Shown in pieces: positions 40,140-55,648 of a stretch of 55,892 bases of DNA. This stretch comes from Glycomyces sp. L485 (GTDB taxonomy: Bacteria; Actinomycetota; Actinomycetes; Mycobacteriales; Micromonosporaceae): the NCBI RefSeq assembly GCF_022548875.1, contig NZ_JAKZEW010000031.1:1-55892 (forward strand), given 5' to 3'. The translations under genes were made by a program, and so were the position numbers. Numbering within the stretch: the first letter of the stretch is position 1; each line of letters starts with the position of its first letter. The notes under the pieces were generated by a model, which was given only the letters and a program-made list of their open reading frames with translations, had not been told where the DNA came from and ran no database searches.

Positions 40140-40337
40140 GGTAAGTCGAGTCTAACGCATCCTCGGAGAACCCGGTGACACGGAACACCGGGAATTCGAC
40201 GCCGCTTTCCTGCAACGTCACCGCCGGTTCAACCGTGGAGCAGAATATACGATGGCGCATACCGAGGGCCCAAAGACGACGCAGCCACGCGAACCGGCCC
40301 AGGACTTAGACGACGAGACAGACAGGGCACGTATTAG

Positions 40338-41738
40338 ATGGGCAACCCGACTCAGAACCCCGAGACCCCGCAGAACACCACCACCCGGCCCCGCATCTCC
40401 TTCCTCGGGTGCGGCTACCTGGGCATCACCAACGCGATCTGCTTCGCCGAGCTCGGCTACGAGGTCATCGGGTACGACGTCGACGCCGCCAAGATCGAGG
40501 CGTTCTCCTCCGGGACCTTGCCCATCCACGAACCCGGACTGCCGGAACTGCTCAAGAAGAACCTCGAATCCGGGCGCCTGCGCTTCACCACCGACATCCA
40601 GACCGTGGCCGACTTCGCCGACGTCCACTTCATCTGCGTGGGCACCCCGCAGCGCCAGGGGGAGCACTCCGCCGACCTGTCCTACATCGAGGCCGCCGTC
40701 ACCGACCTCTCGCGCCACCTGAGCCGCAAGTGCCTCATCGTCGGCAAGTCCACCGTCCCGGTCGGCACCGCCTCCTGGGTCCAGGAGCTGGTCGACCGCC
40801 ACGCGCCCGAAGGACTCGGCGTCGAGGTCGGCTGGTCCCCCGAGTTCCTGCAGGAGTCGAACGCGATGCACGACGTCCTGCGCCCCAACCGCATCGTCTA
40901 CGCCGCTCAGAGCGAATGGGCCTCCAAGCTCCTCAGGGACGTCCACAAGGGCATCCTGGAGCTCGCCGCGGTCGAGGACCGCGAGGTCCCGATCGTCGAG
41001 ACCGACCTGGCCACCGCCGAGCTCGTCAAGGTCGCGGCGAACGCGTTCCTGTCGACCAAGATCTCCTTCATCAACGCCATGGCCGACCTGTGCGAGGTCA
41101 CCGGCGGCGACGTCACCGACCTTGCCCGCGCCATCGGCTACGACGCCCGCATCGGCAACAAGTTCCTACGCGCCGGCATCGGCTTCGGAGGCGGCTGCCT
41201 GCCGAAGGACATCCGCGCCCTCACCGCCCGCGCCGGCGAGCTCGGAGTGGGCGAGTCCTTCCGCTTCCTGGGCGAGGTCGACCAGCTCAACTCGCGGCGC
41301 CGCAGCCACACCGTGCGCGCCGTGGCCGACCTCGTCGGCCGGCCCTCCGGCCCGGCGGGGCCGAACCTGTCGGGCCTGCGCGTCGCCTACCTCGGCGCCA
41401 CCTTCAAGCCGGACACCGACGACATCCGCGACTCCCCGGCGCTCGCGATCGCGCGCAAGCTCCGCCAGGCCCGCGCCGACGTCGTCGTCTACGACCCCGA
41501 GGGCATCGAGAACGCCAAGGCGGCGGCTCCCGAACTCAGCTTCGTGAAGACTCTCCCCGAGGCCGTCGCTGAGGCTGACGTGGTGTGCGCGATGGTGCCG
41601 TGGGAGGAGTTCCGCACGCTCGACCCCGAGGCGCTGGGCCGCCAGGTCGCCGAACGGCGCATCCTCGACGGCATGAACGCCTTCGATCCCGAGCAGTGGA
41701 GCGCACACGGCTGGGACTACCGAGGCATCGGCCGCTGA
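40338..41738 (+). CDS. UDP-glucose 6-dehydrogenase-like enzyme
   Basis: The 466-residue UDP-glucose/GDP-mannose dehydrogenase family member has FLGCGYLGITNAICFAE (Rossmann), STVPVGTASW, ELVKVAANAFLSTKISF and GFGGGCLPKDIRAL with the catalytic Cys. The motif set, with FGGGCLPKD, is that of UDP-glucose dehydrogenases making UDP-glucuronate. Its ATG lacks a strong ribosome binding site. The 231-bp gap upstream holds a leader with no clear promoter. UDP-glucuronate could feed wall polysaccharides coded on both sides. Confidence 0.9.
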   Translation: MGNPTQNPETPQNTTTRPRISFLGCGYLGITNAICFAELGYEVIGYDVDAAKIEAFSSGTLPIHEPGLPELLKKNLESGRLRFTTDIQTVADFADVHFICVGTPQRQGEHSADLSYIEAAVTDLSRHLSRKCLIVGKSTVPVGTASWVQELVDRHAPEGLGVEVGWSPEFLQESNAMHDVLRPNRIVYAAQSEWASKLLRDVHKGILELAAVEDREVPIVETDLATAELVKVAANAFLSTKISFINAMADLCEVTGGDVTDLARAIGYDARIGNKFLRAGIGFGGGCLPKDIRALTARAGELGVGESFRFLGEVDQLNSRRRSHTVRAVADLVGRPSGPAGPNLSGLRVAYLGATFKPDTDDIRDSPALAIARKLRQARADVVVYDPEGIENAKAAAPELSFVKTLPEAVAEADVVCAMVPWEEFRTLDPEALGRQVAERRILDGMNAFDPEQWSAHGWDYRGIGR

Positions 41739-44083: not shown

Positions 44084-44175
44084 AGGTACACCTTAGTTCC
44101 AATGCACCAGAGCCGCTCGCCTGTTGCCCCCTATAACCCGTTCGAGTTTTGTTGAAGGACTTGGAAGGCGGCGAG

Positions 44176-46143
44176 CTAGGCGCGGGCGGCTCGGCGGGCG
44201 CCGACGATGATCGCCCCGACGAAGGTGGCGGCGACGTAGACGGCGAGCGCGGCGAACGTCGCGGTGGCGACGATCGGCTCGGTCACGAGCGAGGCCGCGG
44301 AGGCGGCGACGGCGATGAGGCCGCGCGCGGGCCAGCCGAGTCCGAGGTCGCGGCGGCTCACGGGCGAGGCGGCCTTGTCGAGCCCGGCGGCGAGGTCGTA
44401 GAAGTACAGGGAGACGACGCCGAGCAGCGCGAACAGGACCGGCCAGGAGACCCCGGCGACGAGTCCGGCGGCGGTGATGACGCCGAGTTCGATCGCGCGG
44501 AGCCCCGCGGGGATGAGCCAGTCGAAGATGCCGTCGTGGTCGCTTCTGGCCGAGGCGATCCCGGCCAGGACCGCGACGCATGCGAGGACGAGCGGTGTCC
44601 ACGTGAGGCCTTCGGCGGCGCGCCACACCGCGACGCCCGTCACTGCGGCGGCCAACGCGGTCGAGACCACCGGGAGGTTCGAGAAGCGGTGCCGGTTGGC
44701 GGGCATGGCCCGCGCGAGGACGCCGTCGTCGCGGTGGGCCGCCCGGTCGGGGCGGCGCAGTGCGGCGGTGCGCGCCGCGAGGGTGCGCAGGAGGCGTCCG
44801 GCGCTGGTGTACGCGAGGGCGAGCAGCTGCCAGCACAGGAGCGCTGTGATCGCGATCCTCGGGCCGAAGGCCACGGCGGCGACGGCCAGCAGAAGCCAGC
44901 GCTCGCCGACGCCGGCGACGATGGTGCGCTTGGCCCAGTACAGGAAGGACCGGTGGGCGCCCATGACGTGCTCGGAGGCCGAGCCGAGGCGCTGCCCGAG
45001 GTGGGCGGCGCGTCCGACGGGCGGGGCGGTTTCGCGTTTGCGGGCCTGGCGGACGACGGCGGTGTCGAGCAGGACGGCGTACCAGGTGTCGGCGGTGTGC
45101 CTGACGGTCTGCGTGACCATGGCTGCGACGGCGATGCCCCAGGCGGCGGCGGTGGAGCCGTCGAGAGCGGCACCGGCGGCGAGGCCGGCGTAGATCGCGT
45201 ACTCCTTGCCGCGGTCGGCCATCATGTCGAGCCAGCCGCCGAAGGACGAGAAGTTCTGGGTGTAGCGCGCGAGCTGGCCGTCGACGCAGTCGAACACGAA
45301 GCTGAAGTACATCAGGGCGGCGGCGAGGAGGTACCACCAGCTGAAGCCGGAGGCGAAGATCGCGGCCGCTCCGAGCGCGAGGGCGATGGAGACCCAGGTG
45401 ATGGGGGTGGGGGTCCATCCCAGTCGCGCTCCGAACTTGACGAGTCTCGGGGACCACGAGGAGACGGCGTAGGTGGCGAAGAGGTCGTCGTCGTATTTGA
45501 CGGCGTTGCGCAGCCGCCAGGCGTCCATGTCGACCGAGGTGAACTCGGCGATGGTCTCGGCGGCCTCGTCGGCGTCGCCGGCCTGCCGGTGCGCGAGTCC
45601 GCTCGTCCGGTAGGCGTTGACGGGGATCGCGCGGGCGTGCAGGGCGGCGAGGACGGCCTCGAACGCGTCGCCGGGGGATTCGGCGGGCCAGTGGCGGCGC
45701 AGGCGCGCCAGGTGCGCGGCCGAGACCTTCGCGAGCCCGCCGAGGCGGGCCGGGCCGGGGCCGGGGCCGGTGACCAGGCCGCGTTCGACGCTCACCGGTT
45801 CGGCGGCCGCGTCGTCGGTGCCGACGAGCACGCCGGAGCGGCGCGAGGAGTCGGATAGGACGGCGGCGACGGTGGTCTGAGAGGCGACCAGGTCGGCGTA
45901 GGCGAGGAACAGGGCGCCGGTTCCCGAGAAGGCGATCTCGCGGAGGTGTTCGAGGTCGCTCGCGGCGTCGGCCGACTCGATCTGCGCGGCTTTGACGGTC
46001 AAGTCCGCTCCGGGCCTGATGAGCACGGTCACATCGTCGCATCCGGCCTCTCGGACCTGGGCGATGAGCCGGTCGAGGACCGTGCCGTCTTCGGGTGTTT
46101 CGATGGAGCCGCCTGGCGCCGGCAGGATGACGGCTCGGCTCAC
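44176..46143 (-). CDS. CDP-alcohol phosphotransferase with N-terminal nucleotidyltransferase-like and C-terminal DUF5941 regions
   Basis: The 655-residue protein has a soluble N-terminal region (1-210) with the length and order of a nucleotidyltransferase but a degenerate loop (LPAPGGSIE in place of LAAGxGxR). The CDP-alcohol phosphotransferase domain starts near 245. Its full signature D-x2-DG-x2-AR-x8-G-x3-D-x3-D lies at residues 285-310. Many more membrane segments follow to the end. It could transfer a polyol phosphate or inositol phosphate to a lipid or second polyol. It overlaps the ABC ATPase gene (ATGA). Confidence 0.82.
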   Translation of the reverse strand: MSRAVILPAPGGSIETPEDGTVLDRLIAQVREAGCDDVTVLIRPGADLTVKAAQIESADAASDLEHLREIAFSGTGALFLAYADLVASQTTVAAVLSDSSRRSGVLVGTDDAAAEPVSVERGLVTGPGPGPARLGGLAKVSAAHLARLRRHWPAESPGDAFEAVLAALHARAIPVNAYRTSGLAHRQAGDADEAAETIAEFTSVDMDAWRLRNAVKYDDDLFATYAVSSWSPRLVKFGARLGWTPTPITWVSIALALGAAAIFASGFSWWYLLAAALMYFSFVFDCVDGQLARYTQNFSSFGGWLDMMADRGKEYAIYAGLAAGAALDGSTAAAWGIAVAAMVTQTVRHTADTWYAVLLDTAVVRQARKRETAPPVGRAAHLGQRLGSASEHVMGAHRSFLYWAKRTIVAGVGERWLLLAVAAVAFGPRIAITALLCWQLLALAYTSAGRLLRTLAARTAALRRPDRAAHRDDGVLARAMPANRHRFSNLPVVSTALAAAVTGVAVWRAAEGLTWTPLVLACVAVLAGIASARSDHDGIFDWLIPAGLRAIELGVITAAGLVAGVSWPVLFALLGVVSLYFYDLAAGLDKAASPVSRRDLGLGWPARGLIAVAASAASLVTEPIVATATFAALAVYVAATFVGAIIVGARRAARA

Positions 46144-46970
46144 GAAGCCGCCTCGACAGGCCGGCGGGCGGCCTCCTCGGCTGCCCTCTTCTCAGCGGCC
46201 TTCTTCTCGGCCTTGCGCTTCGCGTTGGCGTCGCTGGACTCGTTGTAGGAGTCGAGGGCCTCCTCGACGGTGCCGTCGGTGACGACGCGCCCGGCGTCGA
46301 GGAAGATGCCGCGCTTGCAGTAGCGCTTGAGCTCGCCGGCCGAGTGGGAGACGAACACGAGCGTGCGGCCCTCTTTGAGAAGGCCGGCGATGACGCCGTG
46401 GCACTTCTTCTTGAAGGCCTTGTCGCCGACGGCGAGCGCCTCATCGACCAGGAGGATCGGGTGCGGCAGCTGGGTGATGACACCGAAGCCGAGGCGCACC
46501 TTCATGCCCGAGGAGTAGTGCTTGACGGGCGTGTCGATGAAGTCCTCGAGCTCGGAGAAGTCGACGATCTCGTCGAACTTCGACTTGATCTCCTTGGTGG
46601 TCATGCCGTGGAGCGCGCCGACGAGGTTGACGTTCTCGCGCCCGGTGAGGTCGCCGGAGAATCCGGCCGACAGGGCGATGAGCGGGGCGACGCGGCCCTC
46701 ACGGCGCACGTAGCCCTCGTCGGGGATGAGGACGCCGGTGATCAGGCGCAGCAGCGTCGACTTCCCGGTGCCGTTCGATCCGATGATGCCGACCGAGTCG
46801 CCGGGGAAGATGTCGAAGTCGACGTGGCGCAGCGGCCAGAAGTCCTCGCTGGCGGCACCCTTCTTGTTGGCGGATCGCCGGACGAACAGGTCCTTGACTC
46901 GGCCCTTCTTCTGCTTGCCTTTGGCGAAGCGGATTCCGAGGTCGCGAGCCTGGATGATCGGCTCCTCCAT
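46140..46970 (-). CDS. ABC transporter ATP-binding protein, TagH/Wzt-like polysaccharide exporter
   Basis: The 276-residue ATPase has IIGSNGTGKSTLLRLITGV (Walker A), KHYSSGMKVRLGFGV (signature), PILLVDEALAVGD (Walker B) and VSHSAGELKRYC (H-loop). RDLGIRFAKGKQKKGRV...DFWPLRHVDFDI is the TagH-type N-terminus, and the C-terminal tail is a charged coiled coil. It would power export of teichoic acid or a related polymer. The ATG at 46970 has GGAGG nine bases upstream. No ABC-2 permease gene is next to it or elsewhere in the window. Confidence 0.88.
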   Translation of the reverse strand: MEEPIIQARDLGIRFAKGKQKKGRVKDLFVRRSANKKGAASEDFWPLRHVDFDIFPGDSVGIIGSNGTGKSTLLRLITGVLIPDEGYVRREGRVAPLIALSAGFSGDLTGRENVNLVGALHGMTTKEIKSKFDEIVDFSELEDFIDTPVKHYSSGMKVRLGFGVITQLPHPILLVDEALAVGDKAFKKKCHGVIAGLLKEGRTLVFVSHSAGELKRYCKRGIFLDAGRVVTDGTVEEALDSYNESSDANAKRKAEKKAAEKRAAEEAARRPVEAAS

Positions 46971-51534: not shown

Positions 51535-51555
51535 CGACAGTCAGAGGAGACCGAG

Positions 51556-53004
51556 ATGGCAAGCAGCCCGAGCATTCGCCGCAACGACTACGGCCCGCTG
51601 CGACGGCCGGTCGGGGAGTGGACGCCGAGCCTGAGCGCCAGTGTCGTCATCCCCGCGCACGGCCAGCAGGAGAAGCTGGACGTGGTGCTGGCGGCGCTCG
51701 CCGCGCAGACCTATCCCGAGGAGCTGCTGGAGGTCGTCGTCGTCGACGACTGCTCCGACCCGGCGCTCCGGCTGCCGGACCTGTGCCCGAAGCACGCGAA
51801 GATCGTGCGGCCGCTTCCCGGCGGCTGGGCGTCGGCGCACGCGACGAACTCCGGTGTGGAGCGCAGCGACGGCGACGTGATCCTGCGCCTCGACTCGGAC
51901 ATGCTGGCCTTCGCCGACCACGTCGAGTCGCAGATGCGCTGGCACCACGCCGCCGACTACCTGACCGTGCTGGGGCACAAGCGCTTCGTCGACTACCAGG
52001 CCGGGGACCTCGACCCGCGCGAGGTCTACGAGCGGGTCGGCGCGGGAGGCGCGGCGGAGCTGTTCGACCTCGACTCCTCGGAGCCGCAGTGGATCGAGGC
52101 GATCATCGACCGCACCGACGGGCTGAAGGACGCCGACCACCGGGCCTTCAGGGTGCTGGTCGGCGCCTCGTTCTCGGTGCCTCGGGGCCTGTACAAGGCG
52201 TCCGGCGGGATGGACGCGGACGTGATACTCGGTTCGGACACGATCTTCGGGTACCGGCTGCACCAGGCCGGGGCGGTGTTCGTGCCGGATGTCGACTCGT
52301 CGTCGTGGCACCTGGGGCCGCGCCAGATCAGTGCGCGCGGTGACCTCGCCAAGCGGTACCGCAGGCCGCACATCGCGAACCGGGTGCCGGAGTTGGACAC
52401 GAAGCGGCCGAGGGCGAGGCGGTCGTGGGTCACGCCGCTGGCCGAGGTGGTCGTGGGGGCCGGGCCCGGGACGGAGTCCTGTGTCGACAAGGTCCTCGCC
52501 GGTTCGGTCCCGGACGTGCGGGTGACGCTGCTGGGCGAGTGGCCGAAGCCGCTGCCGGAGCGCCATGCGCCGCTGGACGACCCGGATCTGGACGCGCGAC
52601 TGCAGGTCGAGTCGTTCCGTGGCGAGCCGAGGGTGCGGACGGCTTCGGAGGTCGAGGACGACCCGACGGTGCCGTACCGGATCTGGCTGCCCGAGGGCGC
52701 GAAGCCGCACCGCGACGCGGTCGCCTCGCTCATCGGGTACGCGAACGAGCACCGCCTCGGCCTGCTCGAAGTGGTGCTTCCCGAGGGCGTCGCGCGCTTG
52801 GAGCGCACGGCGGCGGCGGCGAGGGCCGCGCATCTCGGATCGGACATCGCCGAGGTGTGGGGAGCCGAGCGTGTCACCGAGGGCGCGCTGGTGGACGCGC
52901 TGCTCGGAGTGAAGCGGTCAGGAGTTGGAGATGTGGGCCGAGCTCCCGACGGACTGGGCCGGCGGTCGCGTCGAATCCTGCGACGGGTCCTCGGCCGGCG
53001 CTGA
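51556..53004 (+). CDS. GT2 glycosyltransferase with long C-terminal domain (second of tandem pair)
   Basis: The 482-residue paralogue of the preceding gene has SVVIPAHGQQEKLDVVLAAL, EVVVVDDCSDPALRLPDL, WASAHATNSGVERSDGDVI, LRLDSDM and MRWHHAADYLTVLGHKRFV. The ATG has AGGAG upstream and follows the first gene's stop by 21 bp. The C-terminal 87 bp overlap the end of the convergent GT2 gene on the other strand. The basic C-terminus resembles its twin, so both ends look genuine. Confidence 0.85.
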   Translation: MASSPSIRRNDYGPLRRPVGEWTPSLSASVVIPAHGQQEKLDVVLAALAAQTYPEELLEVVVVDDCSDPALRLPDLCPKHAKIVRPLPGGWASAHATNSGVERSDGDVILRLDSDMLAFADHVESQMRWHHAADYLTVLGHKRFVDYQAGDLDPREVYERVGAGGAAELFDLDSSEPQWIEAIIDRTDGLKDADHRAFRVLVGASFSVPRGLYKASGGMDADVILGSDTIFGYRLHQAGAVFVPDVDSSSWHLGPRQISARGDLAKRYRRPHIANRVPELDTKRPRARRSWVTPLAEVVVGAGPGTESCVDKVLAGSVPDVRVTLLGEWPKPLPERHAPLDDPDLDARLQVESFRGEPRVRTASEVEDDPTVPYRIWLPEGAKPHRDAVASLIGYANEHRLGLLEVVLPEGVARLERTAAAARAAHLGSDIAEVWGAERVTEGALVDALLGVKRSGVGDVGRAPDGLGRRSRRILRRVLGRR

Positions 53005-54027
53005 CGGGTCGCTTCGCTTGAGCTTGCGCTTCGCTGACTGCGATAGGCGCCAGGCCTTGCGCAGCGCCTCGTATCCGAGGTAGGCGCGGGCGGCGAGCAG
53101 CCGCTGCTTGAGGCCGTCGGCGCCCCTGGCGGGGCGCCATGCGTCCGGGCCTGGGTGGTAGCGGCGGTACAGATCGGAGGTGCGGCGGAAGAACTCGCGG
53201 CGCTTCTTGGGGTCGACGCGCTCGGTGTTGCCGATGACGAGCAGCAGGTGCCACACCATGTGGTTGAACAGGGCGACGCGGACGCCGGGGTCCTCTACGG
53301 ACTCGAAGTCGTCCCAGACTCGCTGCCATTGGGTGAACACGTCGAAGTGGCGGTCGTCGCGGGTGCGGGTGATCGAGGAGCCGGCCCGCTGGATCCACTG
53401 GTAGCAGCATTCGGTGACGAGGGCCATGCGCTTCGCGCGGCGGAACAGCCCGTAGGTCCAGGGGATGTCGGTGTACCAGCCGGAGGGGAAGTCGAGGTCG
53501 ATCGAGGTGAGGAACTCGCGGCGGGAGACCTTCGTCCACGGCGTGTGCGTGTAGTCGATGATCCGGGGCCATTCCTCCAGTGTGAATCCGGCCGGGTCGA
53601 CGGGGCTGCGTCCCGCGAGGTCGGCGAGTTCGCCGGCTTCGACGGCGCCGGTGTCGCGCACCTTCTCGTGCTGGACGAGCACGACGTCGGGTTTTTCTCC
53701 GTCGGCGGTGACTGCGGCGATGACGCGATCGACCGCACCGGGTTTGAGCTCGTCGTCGGCGTCGACGAACCACACGTAGTCGCCTGTGGCGTGTGTGAGT
53801 CCGTGGTTGCGGGCGGGGCCAGAACCGGCGTTCTCGGGTGTGGACACGACGCGGATGCGCGGATCGCCTTCGGCGTAGCGATCCGCTATGGCGCGCGAGG
53901 CATCGGGCGAGCAGTCGTCTGAGATGACGACTTCGAGCTGGTCTCCTCCGCCGACGATGGTGTCGAGGCATCCCGCGAGGTATTCCTCGGCCTGATAGAC
54001 GGGGATGACAATGCTCAATGAGGGCAT
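52918..54027 (-). CDS. GT2 glycosyltransferase
   Basis: The 369-residue protein has SIVIPVYQAEEYLAGCLDTI, EVVISDDCSPD, PENAGSGPARNHGLTHATG and YVWFVDADDELK, the GT2 fold with a DADD metal site. The C-terminal third is basic and then disordered (SQDSTRPPAQSVGSSAHISN). Its ATG is 343 bp from the divergent WbpA-like gene, across the 11-nt direct repeats. Its 3' end overlaps the convergent GT2 gene by 87 bp. Confidence 0.85.
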   Translation of the reverse strand: MPSLSIVIPVYQAEEYLAGCLDTIVGGGDQLEVVISDDCSPDASRAIADRYAEGDPRIRVVSTPENAGSGPARNHGLTHATGDYVWFVDADDELKPGAVDRVIAAVTADGEKPDVVLVQHEKVRDTGAVEAGELADLAGRSPVDPAGFTLEEWPRIIDYTHTPWTKVSRREFLTSIDLDFPSGWYTDIPWTYGLFRRAKRMALVTECCYQWIQRAGSSITRTRDDRHFDVFTQWQRVWDDFESVEDPGVRVALFNHMVWHLLLVIGNTERVDPKKRREFFRRTSDLYRRYHPGPDAWRPARGADGLKQRLLAARAYLGYEALRKAWRLSQSAKRKLKRSDPSAPAEDPSQDSTRPPAQSVGSSAHISNS

Positions 54028-54176
54028 GAATAGATTCTAACCCTGCGGTGACCGTCTCAGTGCACCCCGAATACGCGCGAAATCACAGTCCTGCAAACGC
54101 GTTCTGGCATGTGAACGGCAGATTCTGGGATGCGATTCATGGGATTGGCGCGACACGCCGATCAAATCGGACGACG

Positions 54177-54205
54177 GGTGAACTCTTGTGGAGCGTCCGG
54201 TGAAC
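54177..54205 (-). promoter_or_regulatory. PHO-box-like direct repeats, three 11-nt units
   Basis: On the minus strand, GTTCACC (54199-54205), GCTCCAC (54188-54194) and GTTCACC (54177-54183) start exactly 11 nt apart. Two are perfect matches to the 7-nt core of streptomycete PHO boxes and the middle one is degenerate. OmpR-type regulators such as PhoP bind such 11-nt repeats. Confidence 0.55.
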
Positions 54206-54248
54206 AATCCATTCGGTCGACTATTGCCTTGCCTACACATGTACCAAA

Positions 54249-54266
54249 CGTGAACCATTCGCGAAC
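54249..54266 (-). promoter_or_regulatory. Second pair of PHO-box-like units
   Basis: On the minus strand GTTCGCG (54260-54266) is followed 11 nt later by GTTCACG (54249-54255). This is the same spacing as the triplet 44 bp away. A single GTTCACA also lies at 54110-54116. Confidence 0.4.
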
Positions 54267-54370
54267 AACCATTTACGTTCGCCCTGGTCAGATAATCAAG
54301 TTTCGTTGTTGCTAATCTCTGAATCAGGACCTTCGACCGCACCCCGCACAGATTCGCAAAGGATTCTACT

Positions 54371-55648
54371 GTGGCACCGAATGAAAACGCGAGTGAGACA
54401 CCGATCGACCTCGTCGTGGTCGGTCAGGGCTATGTCGGGCTCCCGCTCGCTCAGGCCGCGACCGCCAAGGGGCTCAACGTGGTCGGACTCGACCGCTCGA
54501 AGCGCGTCGTCGCCGCCCTGAACGGCGGCACCAGCCACATCGACGACATCACCGACGATGAGCTCGGCAACATGCTCCGAAAGGGATACACCGCCTCGAC
54601 CGACGCCTCGGTCCAGGCGCGTGCCAAGGCGATCGTCATCTGCGTGCCGACGCCGCTTTCCGAGGTCGGCGGCCCGGACCTGACCGCCGTCACCTCCGCG
54701 GCGCGGTCGGCCGGCGACCACCTGATGAGCGGCACGCTCGTGGTTTTGGAGTCCACCACCTACCCGGGCACCACAGAGGAGGTCGTCGCCCCGATCCTGG
54801 AGAAGAACGGCCTCAAGGCCGGCGAGGACTTCCATCTCGCCTTCTCGCCCGAGCGCGTCGATCCGGGCAACCCGATCTACGGGATCGTCAACACCCCCAA
54901 GGTCGTCGGCGGCCTCACCCCGGACTGCACCGCGGCGGCCGCGGCGCTCTACAGCCAGTTCATCGACACCGTCGTCGAGGCGAAGGGCACCCGCGAGGCG
55001 GAGATGGCGAAGCTGCTGGAGAACACCTACCGGCACGTGAACATCGCTCTGGTCAACGAGATGGCGGTCTTCTGCCGCGAGCTCGGCGTCGACCTGTGGG
55101 ACGCGATCGGCCTGGCCAAGACCAAGCCGTTCGGCTACCAGGCCTTCTACCCCGGGCCCGGCGTCGGCGGGCACTGCATCCCGATCGACCCGAACTATCT
55201 GTCCTACAAGGTCCGCACGCTCGGCTACCCATTCCGATTCGTCGAGCTGGCCCAGGAGATCAACAACCGGATGCCCGAGTACGTGGTCAGCCGGGCGATG
55301 GCGAGTCTGAACAAGAACCGCCTGGCGCTGTCGCGCTCGCGCGTGCTGCTACTGGGCGTCACCTACAAGCCCGACATCGCCGACCAGCGCGAATCGCCCT
55401 CCGAGCCGGTTGCGAAGAAGCTCATCGATGCCGGTGCCGAGGTGGCCTACCACGACCCGCATGTCGAGACGTGGTCCGTGAACGGTCGCGAGGTGGAGCG
55501 GGTCACCGAGCTCTCCTCGGCGAAGGCGGACCTGGCGATCGTGCTGACGAACCACAGCGAGTACACCGCCGAGTCGCTTCCCGACGGTGTGGCGGTCCTC
55601 GATACGCGCGGAGCCCTGCGCGGTGTCGAAGGCGTCGAGCTGCTCTGA
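54371..55648 (+). CDS. UDP-N-acetylhexosamine 6-dehydrogenase (WbpA-like)
   Basis: The 425-residue dehydrogenase has VVVGQGYVGLPLAQAA (Rossmann), STTYPGTTEEVV, LLENTYRHVNIALVNE and FYPGPGVGGHCIPIDPNYL with the catalytic Cys. LGVTYKPDIADQRESPS is in the C-terminal domain. The GxGVGGHCIPIDP block matches WbpA, which makes UDP-GlcNAc-uronic acid. The GTG has AAAGGA seven bases upstream. A strong terminator follows, so it is probably monocistronic. Confidence 0.9.
   Translation: MAPNENASETPIDLVVVGQGYVGLPLAQAATAKGLNVVGLDRSKRVVAALNGGTSHIDDITDDELGNMLRKGYTASTDASVQARAKAIVICVPTPLSEVGGPDLTAVTSAARSAGDHLMSGTLVVLESTTYPGTTEEVVAPILEKNGLKAGEDFHLAFSPERVDPGNPIYGIVNTPKVVGGLTPDCTAAAAALYSQFIDTVVEAKGTREAEMAKLLENTYRHVNIALVNEMAVFCRELGVDLWDAIGLAKTKPFGYQAFYPGPGVGGHCIPIDPNYLSYKVRTLGYPFRFVELAQEINNRMPEYVVSRAMASLNKNRLALSRSRVLLLGVTYKPDIADQRESPSEPVAKKLIDAGAEVAYHDPHVETWSVNGREVERVTELSSAKADLAIVLTNHSEYTAESLPDGVAVLDTRGALRGVEGVELL

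Follow-up and report, generated by a model that had tools for sequence, protein, structure and literature searches.

The 11-nt direct repeats located between the divergent genes of a WbpA-like nucleotide-sugar dehydrogenase and a GT2 glycosyltransferase in Glycomyces sp. L485 probably represent a PHO-type operator whose central unit is degenerate and through which RegX3/PhoP would act mainly on the wbpA promoter. The window, that is, the whole stretch of 55,892 nucleotides that was analyzed, corresponds to contig C125 in a draft genome of 4.42 Mb. The features in and around its 343-nt wbpA/GT2 interval are the following.

52918..54027, minus strand: GT2 glycosyltransferase gene, divergent neighbour of wbpA and possible second target.
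54034..54039, minus strand: predicted GT2 -10 element TAGAAT, 6 nt before the ATG.
54177..54205, minus strand: array A, GTTCACC-N4-GCTCCAC-N4-GTTCACC, predicted PHO-type three-unit operator with a degenerate middle unit.
54238..54266, minus strand: array B, GTTCGCG-N4-GTTCACG-N4-GTACATG, weak ancillary array of which only the middle unit is conserved.
54282..54289, plus strand: CCCTGGTC block, a conserved stretch a short way upstream of the wbpA -10, spanning roughly -43 to -36 relative to the inferred start.
54313..54318, plus strand: predicted wbpA -10 element TAATCT, extended (TGC before it), assigned by eye from sequence and conservation.
54371..55648, plus strand: wbpA-like nucleotide-sugar dehydrogenase gene and favoured target; the equivalog models closest to it are those of UDP-N-acetylmannosamine dehydrogenase, whose cut-offs it does not reach.

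Array A is made up, on the minus strand, of A1 (GTTCACC, 54205-54199), a middle unit (GCTCCAC, 54194-54188), and A3 (GTTCACC, 54183-54177), which follow an 11-nt register; the GTTCACC core is exact in A1 and A3, and the middle unit is in register. Array B, on the same strand, comprises B1 (GTTCGCG, 54266-54260), B2 (GTTCACG, 54255-54249), and B3 (GTACATG, 54244-54238), the last being a third unit of the second repeat group by which the 11-nt register is kept. The three 7-nt minus-strand units and the second pair of equal spacing, as described in the sequence-only reading, are exact in both letters and coordinates. Exact GTTCACC-N15-GTTCACC is found at two places in the genome, namely, array A and a site within a long open reading frame. 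With up to two mismatches allowed, the 56-kb window holds one match (the exact one) against 0.33 expected, and at least one match was present in 29 of 100 shuffles; the chance test on letters alone within the window is modest evidence. A search of 22 Glycomyces genomes for exact TTCACC-N16-TTCACC gave 33 sites, of which 16 carry the array A letters and a further one lies before pap in genome G021; the reversed control pattern gave two. It is conservation that carries the case for array A as a putative operator.

The closest relatives of the GT2 protein, with 70-85% identity, belong to 20 named Glycomyces genomes and one actinomycete MAG (loci L009-L029), and the divergent wbpA/GT2 pair is present in all 21 of these loci. 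Conservation of the repeats upstream of orthologues, a check proposed together with the PHO-box reading, was borne out, since the 22-nt-spaced array A is kept in 21/21 aligned relatives. In the intergenic alignment of 22 sequences (the window plus 21 relatives), GTTCACC is unchanged as A1 in 18 and as A3 in 16, with one or two bases different in the remaining sequences; 0.9% and 2.3% of the 7-nt alignment windows are more conserved than A1 and A3, respectively. The middle unit is poorly conserved and not outstanding in the alignment, its leading G being found in 22/22 sequences and the T two places on in 21/22. In array B, B2 keeps GTTCA in 21/22 sequences, while B1 begins with GTT in 15/22 and reads GTTCGCG solely in L485; conservation of B1 and B3 is no higher than that of their surroundings. 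The array B pattern has two matches in the window, a count reached by 15 of 100 shuffles, and array B alone is not beyond chance. The second pair, GTTCGCG/GTTCACG, is weak, with a single conserved unit.

Spacing between A1 and A3 is 22 nt in 22/22 sequences; likewise, in each of these the CCAGGG block lies 31 nt from the wbpA -10, B1 21 nt from this block, and B2 11 nt from B1. From B2 to A1 there are 50 nt in 20/22 sequences, and from the inferred wbpA -10 to A1 113 nt in 20/22 (112 and 114 in the other two), whereas five different distances, of 153-157 nt, separate A3 from the GT2 start in the same set. As the distance between array A and the wbpA -10 is almost fixed and that to the GT2 start is variable, wbpA is favoured as the partner of the operator; among the targets initially proposed, which were GT2, wbpA, or both, the geometry points to wbpA rather than to GT2. 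The CCCTGGTC block is highly conserved at fixed spacing to the wbpA -10 and, taken in its wider context, is the best match of the genome and the sole one with fewer than three mismatches. A recognisable -35 element was not found in the wbpA promoter, and a single -35-less wbpA promoter seems to be formed by the -10 with the CCCTGGTC block and array B. Counting against the preferred reading, array A precedes the inferred wbpA start by about 120-148 nt, which is far for direct contact.

The GT2 gene, alone or together with wbpA, could be the real target of a PHO-type operator acting via a leaderless GT2 promoter; this is compatible with the preferred reading, yet considered rather unlikely. A leaderless start itself is likely, as the predicted GT2 -10 lies 6 nt before the ATG. 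Array A is placed between both genes, at 153-157 nt from the GT2 start in all 22 sequences, and its units are oriented toward GT2, not toward wbpA; in the pap and senX3 boxes of the same genome the units are also found on the strand opposite to the gene, as is the case for array A and wbpA. In addition, the activated members of the Pho regulon listed for P. rosea include the orthologues of SCO4877-SCO4880 and SCO4882, among which SCO4878 is a GT2 gene (PMC8269224). Against this stand the distance of about 137 nt between array A and the inferred GT2 -10, too far for a classical activator position, the spacing to GT2, which is more variable than that to wbpA, and the result that a conserved -10 following array A was not found by eye in the 22 aligned sequences. 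There may be an effect on GT2, which is the less likely main target.

For ranking of the site, a genus PHO matrix was trained on ten unit sets (pstS and pap, three each; senX3 and pstB, two each), with the window excluded. The pstS rows were taken from 20 of 21 loci (the start in L141 was not resolved), the 22nd genome giving a weak match only, and the pap rows from 21/22 loci (L198 is without a box) with a pattern that presupposes the first pap unit; senX3 rows were obtained from 16/22 with a pattern that presupposes the box, and pstB rows from the L485 genome alone. The pstS box, GTTCACC-N4-GTTCAAC-N4-AGTCAGC, is nearly invariant in the 20 aligned loci, and the three-unit array of the DUF47 pap gene was parsed in 21/22 loci, with a variable third unit. 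In L485, the senX3 box reads AGTCACC-N4-GTTAACC, a similar pair being found by pattern in 16/22, and the pstB box, ATTCACC-N4-GTTCACC, precedes a gene that was named by eye from its translated start. On contig C12 of this genome, the pstB gene so named seems to lie on the opposite strand and to have a PHO-boxed promoter of its own, and phoU is located directly upstream of pstS, as opposed to its position beside phoR-phoP in Streptomyces (PMC7866108). A second PBP_like_2 match lies at C111:30406.

The scan covered 443,945 bases on both strands, consisting of 388 kb of L485 genome stretches and the window. This sample is non-random: eight of 20 stretches of one set were chosen for pattern matches or phosphate genes, and some of the remaining stretches also carry pattern matches. 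The resulting enrichment for strong sites makes the rank of the window worse, not better. With a triple score of 22.84, array A comes fifth, below pap-pit (32.19 and 25.05, in two registers), pstS (25.51, trained), and ppk (23.83, untrained) and directly above a C18 site (22.67) that overlaps open frames. The pap-pit, pstS, and pstB promoters of L485 serve as training members and yardsticks alike; only ppk and phoX are independent. The ppk array lies directly before the polyphosphate kinase gene (L109:7282, minus strand; contig C111:22281), and a pair scoring 16.84, likewise untrained, precedes the gene of a PhoX-type phosphatase (L095:15864, plus strand; contig C37), both gene products being confirmed by Pfam. 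Since these two promoters were retrieved untrained, the genus-specific matrix built from pstS, pap-pit, senX3, and pstB finds phosphate genes beyond its training set.

The triple score of array A was reached by 0/5000 shuffles of the 343-nt interval, and array A is the best triple of the whole 6-11-kb locus in 21/21 relatives, although L024 and L025 score low (12.5 and 10.1). Two of 147 AT-rich 343-nt tiles of the L485 genome score higher on triples (pap-pit and pstS; the ppk array is split by a tile edge), and 13/147 score at least as high as the array A region on pairs. The best adjacent pair of the interval, at 11.60, is equalled or exceeded in 576/5000 shuffles and is no better than chance. 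Pair matches above 17 were also found beside or inside frames without a known phosphate link (L094:10485, L102:2769, L095:10206, and L101:9203), and the specificity of pairs is limited by several such matches between 17 and 19. The proposed comparison with the Pho promoters of the same genome thus came out in favour of array A on triples, where it ranks with pap-pit, pstS, and ppk, but not on pairs. Two adjacent well-matching units are not present, as the score of 11.60 for the best adjacent pair tells. With its middle unit degenerate, array A is therefore designated a PHO-type variant rather than a canonical PHO box. What stands of the PHO-box reading is the PHO-type operator, which is backed by triple rank, conservation, and the presence of a RegX3/PhoP orthologue; what does not is the pair of adjacent good units. 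On the two points by which the sequence-only reading was to be judged, the repeats are conserved and the triple score is beyond random.

That array A would be a conserved promoter sequence of unrelated function, merely resembling PHO units, is very improbable. The non-significant pair score is in line with it, and the CCCTGGTC block provides a case of similarly high conservation at fixed spacing; the triple score (0/5000 shuffles), its first rank in 21/21 loci, and the retrieval of the untrained ppk and phoX promoters by the matrix argue to the contrary, as does a search of 53500-54600 against Rfam, which was without a match down to the limit of E 0.1.

The PHO box of Streptomyces consists of 11-nt units with a GTTCACC core, and binding is reported to need two units (PMC6988585, PMC4415409). 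The L485 genome encodes seven OmpR-type response regulators and four weaker matches, at least one of these being an AfsR-like SARP. The RegX3/PhoP orthologue (L112:1054-1740) matches RegX3 (2oqr) at E 6.8e-107; its winged-helix segment, from RVLTRGQLIDRVWGA through VKRLRSKIE, has one difference from RegX3, and its gene comes after that of a histidine kinase. L112 would, from these matches, provide the cognate response regulator with a matching recognition segment.

A regulator of the AfsR type sharing these sites is, together with GT2 as the target, the chief rival of the preferred reading, although an improbable one. SARP boxes are direct repeats 11 or 22 bp apart, located 8 bp from the -10 (PMC10936776), and both the 22-bp spacing in 22/22 sequences and the GTTCA core of array A would fit; moreover, the sequences bound by AfsR overlap those bound by PhoP at pstS, phoRP, and glnR (PMC10936776). 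L485 itself encodes a protein of AfsR architecture (BTAD, NB-ARC, and TPR), about 100 nt before whose gene a PHO-like pair, GTTCAAC-N4-GATCACC, is located (L238:4697, plus strand; contig C117), which hints at PhoP control of AfsR or at an overlap of their sites. No -10 conserved 8 bp from the 3' repeat of array A was found by eye in the 22 sequences, however, and the same units occur before pstS, pap-pit, senX3, ppk, and phoX, which is a phosphate set.

Phosphate-dependent control by RegX3/PhoP, the preferred reading, was also followed outside the genus. Of the 57 genomes matching there, four from three genera were picked for high identity; the divergent wbpA/GT2 pair is present, less tight, in 4/4, and a PHO-like array is found in the wbpA/GT2 intervals of 4/4, with a best shuffle count of 1 or 2 of 1000 per genome. 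Altogether, 12 shuffle tests were run on six intervals, eight of which gave at most 10/1000 and four 33, 41, 42, and 53. The remaining tiles of these loci score lower in 4/4, one triple of L182 being nearly equal (17.0 versus 18.8). In L182 and L183, which are of one genus, a methyltransferase-like gene (named by eye) is located between the wbpA/GT2 pair, and PHO-like pairs precede both this gene and GT2. The arrays of the other genera differ from array A in letters, place, and form; differing in letters and place, they are support for control, not for homology of the site.

In the window, operator-like arrays are seen by sequence at two dehydrogenase genes, the second array being the weaker.

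40205..40233, plus strand: array U, CTTTCCT-N4-CGTCACC-N4-GTTCAAC, candidate array before the second dehydrogenase.
40338..41738, plus strand: second nucleotide-sugar dehydrogenase gene, TuaD-like, candidate member of the same regulon.

The best equivalog of the second dehydrogenase is TuaD, with 360.6 bits, below the 700-bit cut-off. Array U, with a triple score of 15.24, is similar to array A but weaker. Its gene was found in 15 of 16 fetched relatives (L243 was too short); with the window added, 16 rows were aligned, 15 of which were parsed for geometry (L252 has a short upstream region). In 15/15 parsed sequences the last unit reads GTTCA and is located 11 nt before the conserved ATATACGA, and ATATACG(A/G) following array U is likely to be the -10. 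The distance of the last unit from this element is close to that at the activator position of PhoB. It is also close to the activator position of AfsR (PMC10936776). The first two units are no more conserved than their surroundings, the middle one being absent in L240, L245, and L247 (3/15), so array U is offered as a candidate only.

As to other genes of the surface polymers, a TagF-like fusion protein is encoded elsewhere in the L485 genome, and the matrix found no PHO site above threshold at the start of its gene; a PHO-like pair scoring 20.51, ATTTACC-N4-GTTCACC (L237:6735, minus strand; contig C138), precedes, by about 90 nt, a GT2 frame of 826 aa located after the TagF-like fusion gene. 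Within the window, the 3' end of the minus-strand GT2 gene overlaps that of a convergent, plus-strand GT2-like frame at 51556-53004 by 87 nt (52918-53004). Two further minus-strand frames, 51541-52833 and 44093-46483, were rejected as genes, both having no family match and a translation unlike a real protein; in the former case, the true gene is the plus-strand frame 51556-53004.

Among known systems, array A shares with the Streptomyces PHO box the GTTCACC core, the 11-nt register, and the regulator family, and like units are found in L485 before pstS, pstB, pap-pit, senX3, ppk, and phoX. It differs in that two good units are 22 nt apart instead of adjacent, with a degenerate middle unit, and in that its target would be a nucleotide-sugar dehydrogenase promoter. 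In the Bacillus subtilis tua operon, tuaD is under PhoP. The TuaD-like gene at 40338-41738 resembles this situation; the differences are that the best box is at a WbpA-like (UDP-ManNAc type) dehydrogenase, over which control would be exerted, and that the two Glycomyces dehydrogenase genes lie apart in the cluster rather than in one operon. PhoP of Bacillus subtilis governs the genes of phosphate-free wall polymers in the teichuronic acid switch (PMC4415409), and in Streptomyces, teichuronic-acid genes are reported to be activated, and teichoic-acid genes lowered, by PhoP (PMC6988585). SCO4877-SCO4882 are, like those of the window, actinobacterial surface-polymer genes including GT2; unlike them, they include a sialic acid synthase, and a dehydrogenase box is not described in the excerpts of PMC8269224. 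In Microlunatus phosphovorus, PolR binds five promoters (two pit, ppgk, ppk, and pstS) with GTTCAC units at 11-nt spacing, its recognition sequence GTTCACnnnnnGTTCaC having been footprinted on one pit promoter (PMC6754071). Units and spacing are as in array A, whereas the two units are adjacent and PolR is of a different two-component system that is thought to sense oxygen (PMC6754071); "teich" does not occur in the main text of that paper. A taxonomic survey, PMC6113628, contains both words, Glycomyces and teichuronic. "Glycomyces" was absent among the matches listed of a literature search, and "UDP-glucose dehydrogenase" was absent from the text portions of the papers matching a further one.

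Summarizing, under phosphate limitation, phosphorylated RegX3/PhoP would occupy array A, with cooperativity bridging its degenerate middle unit, as well as array B, and from there would activate the -35-less, extended -10 promoter of wbpA. This would raise the supply of UDP-hexosaminuronic acid for a phosphate-free surface polymer. Binding of RegX3/PhoP, activation at low phosphate, wbpA as the main target, and the polymer switch are inferred from sequence. Control is probably shared by the TuaD-like dehydrogenase, whose gene lies at a distance of about 13 kb. A wider proposal is made more tentatively, being possible though somewhat short of even expectation: the WbpA-like and TuaD-like dehydrogenases of one surface-polymer cluster might both belong to the phosphate-starvation regulon, each with a three-unit operator whose middle unit may decay.

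That L485, a soil bacterium, and the relatives examined retain an array resembling the boxes of their phosphate-uptake genes beside a gene for a sugar-acid surface component suggests that phosphate supply controls cell wall composition in Glycomyces. If true, the wiring of two dehydrogenases would provide a further lineage of actinobacteria with a wall switch of the teichuronic type, using genes other than those of the Bacillus tua operon or the Streptomyces SCO4877-4882 cluster, and phosphate control of wall-polymer choice, which is known from Bacillus and reported for Streptomyces, would extend to Glycomyces with a different enzyme pair. It is further suggested that degeneracy of the centre unit does not prevent an operator from persisting genus-wide, which matters for searches that demand two adjacent good units.
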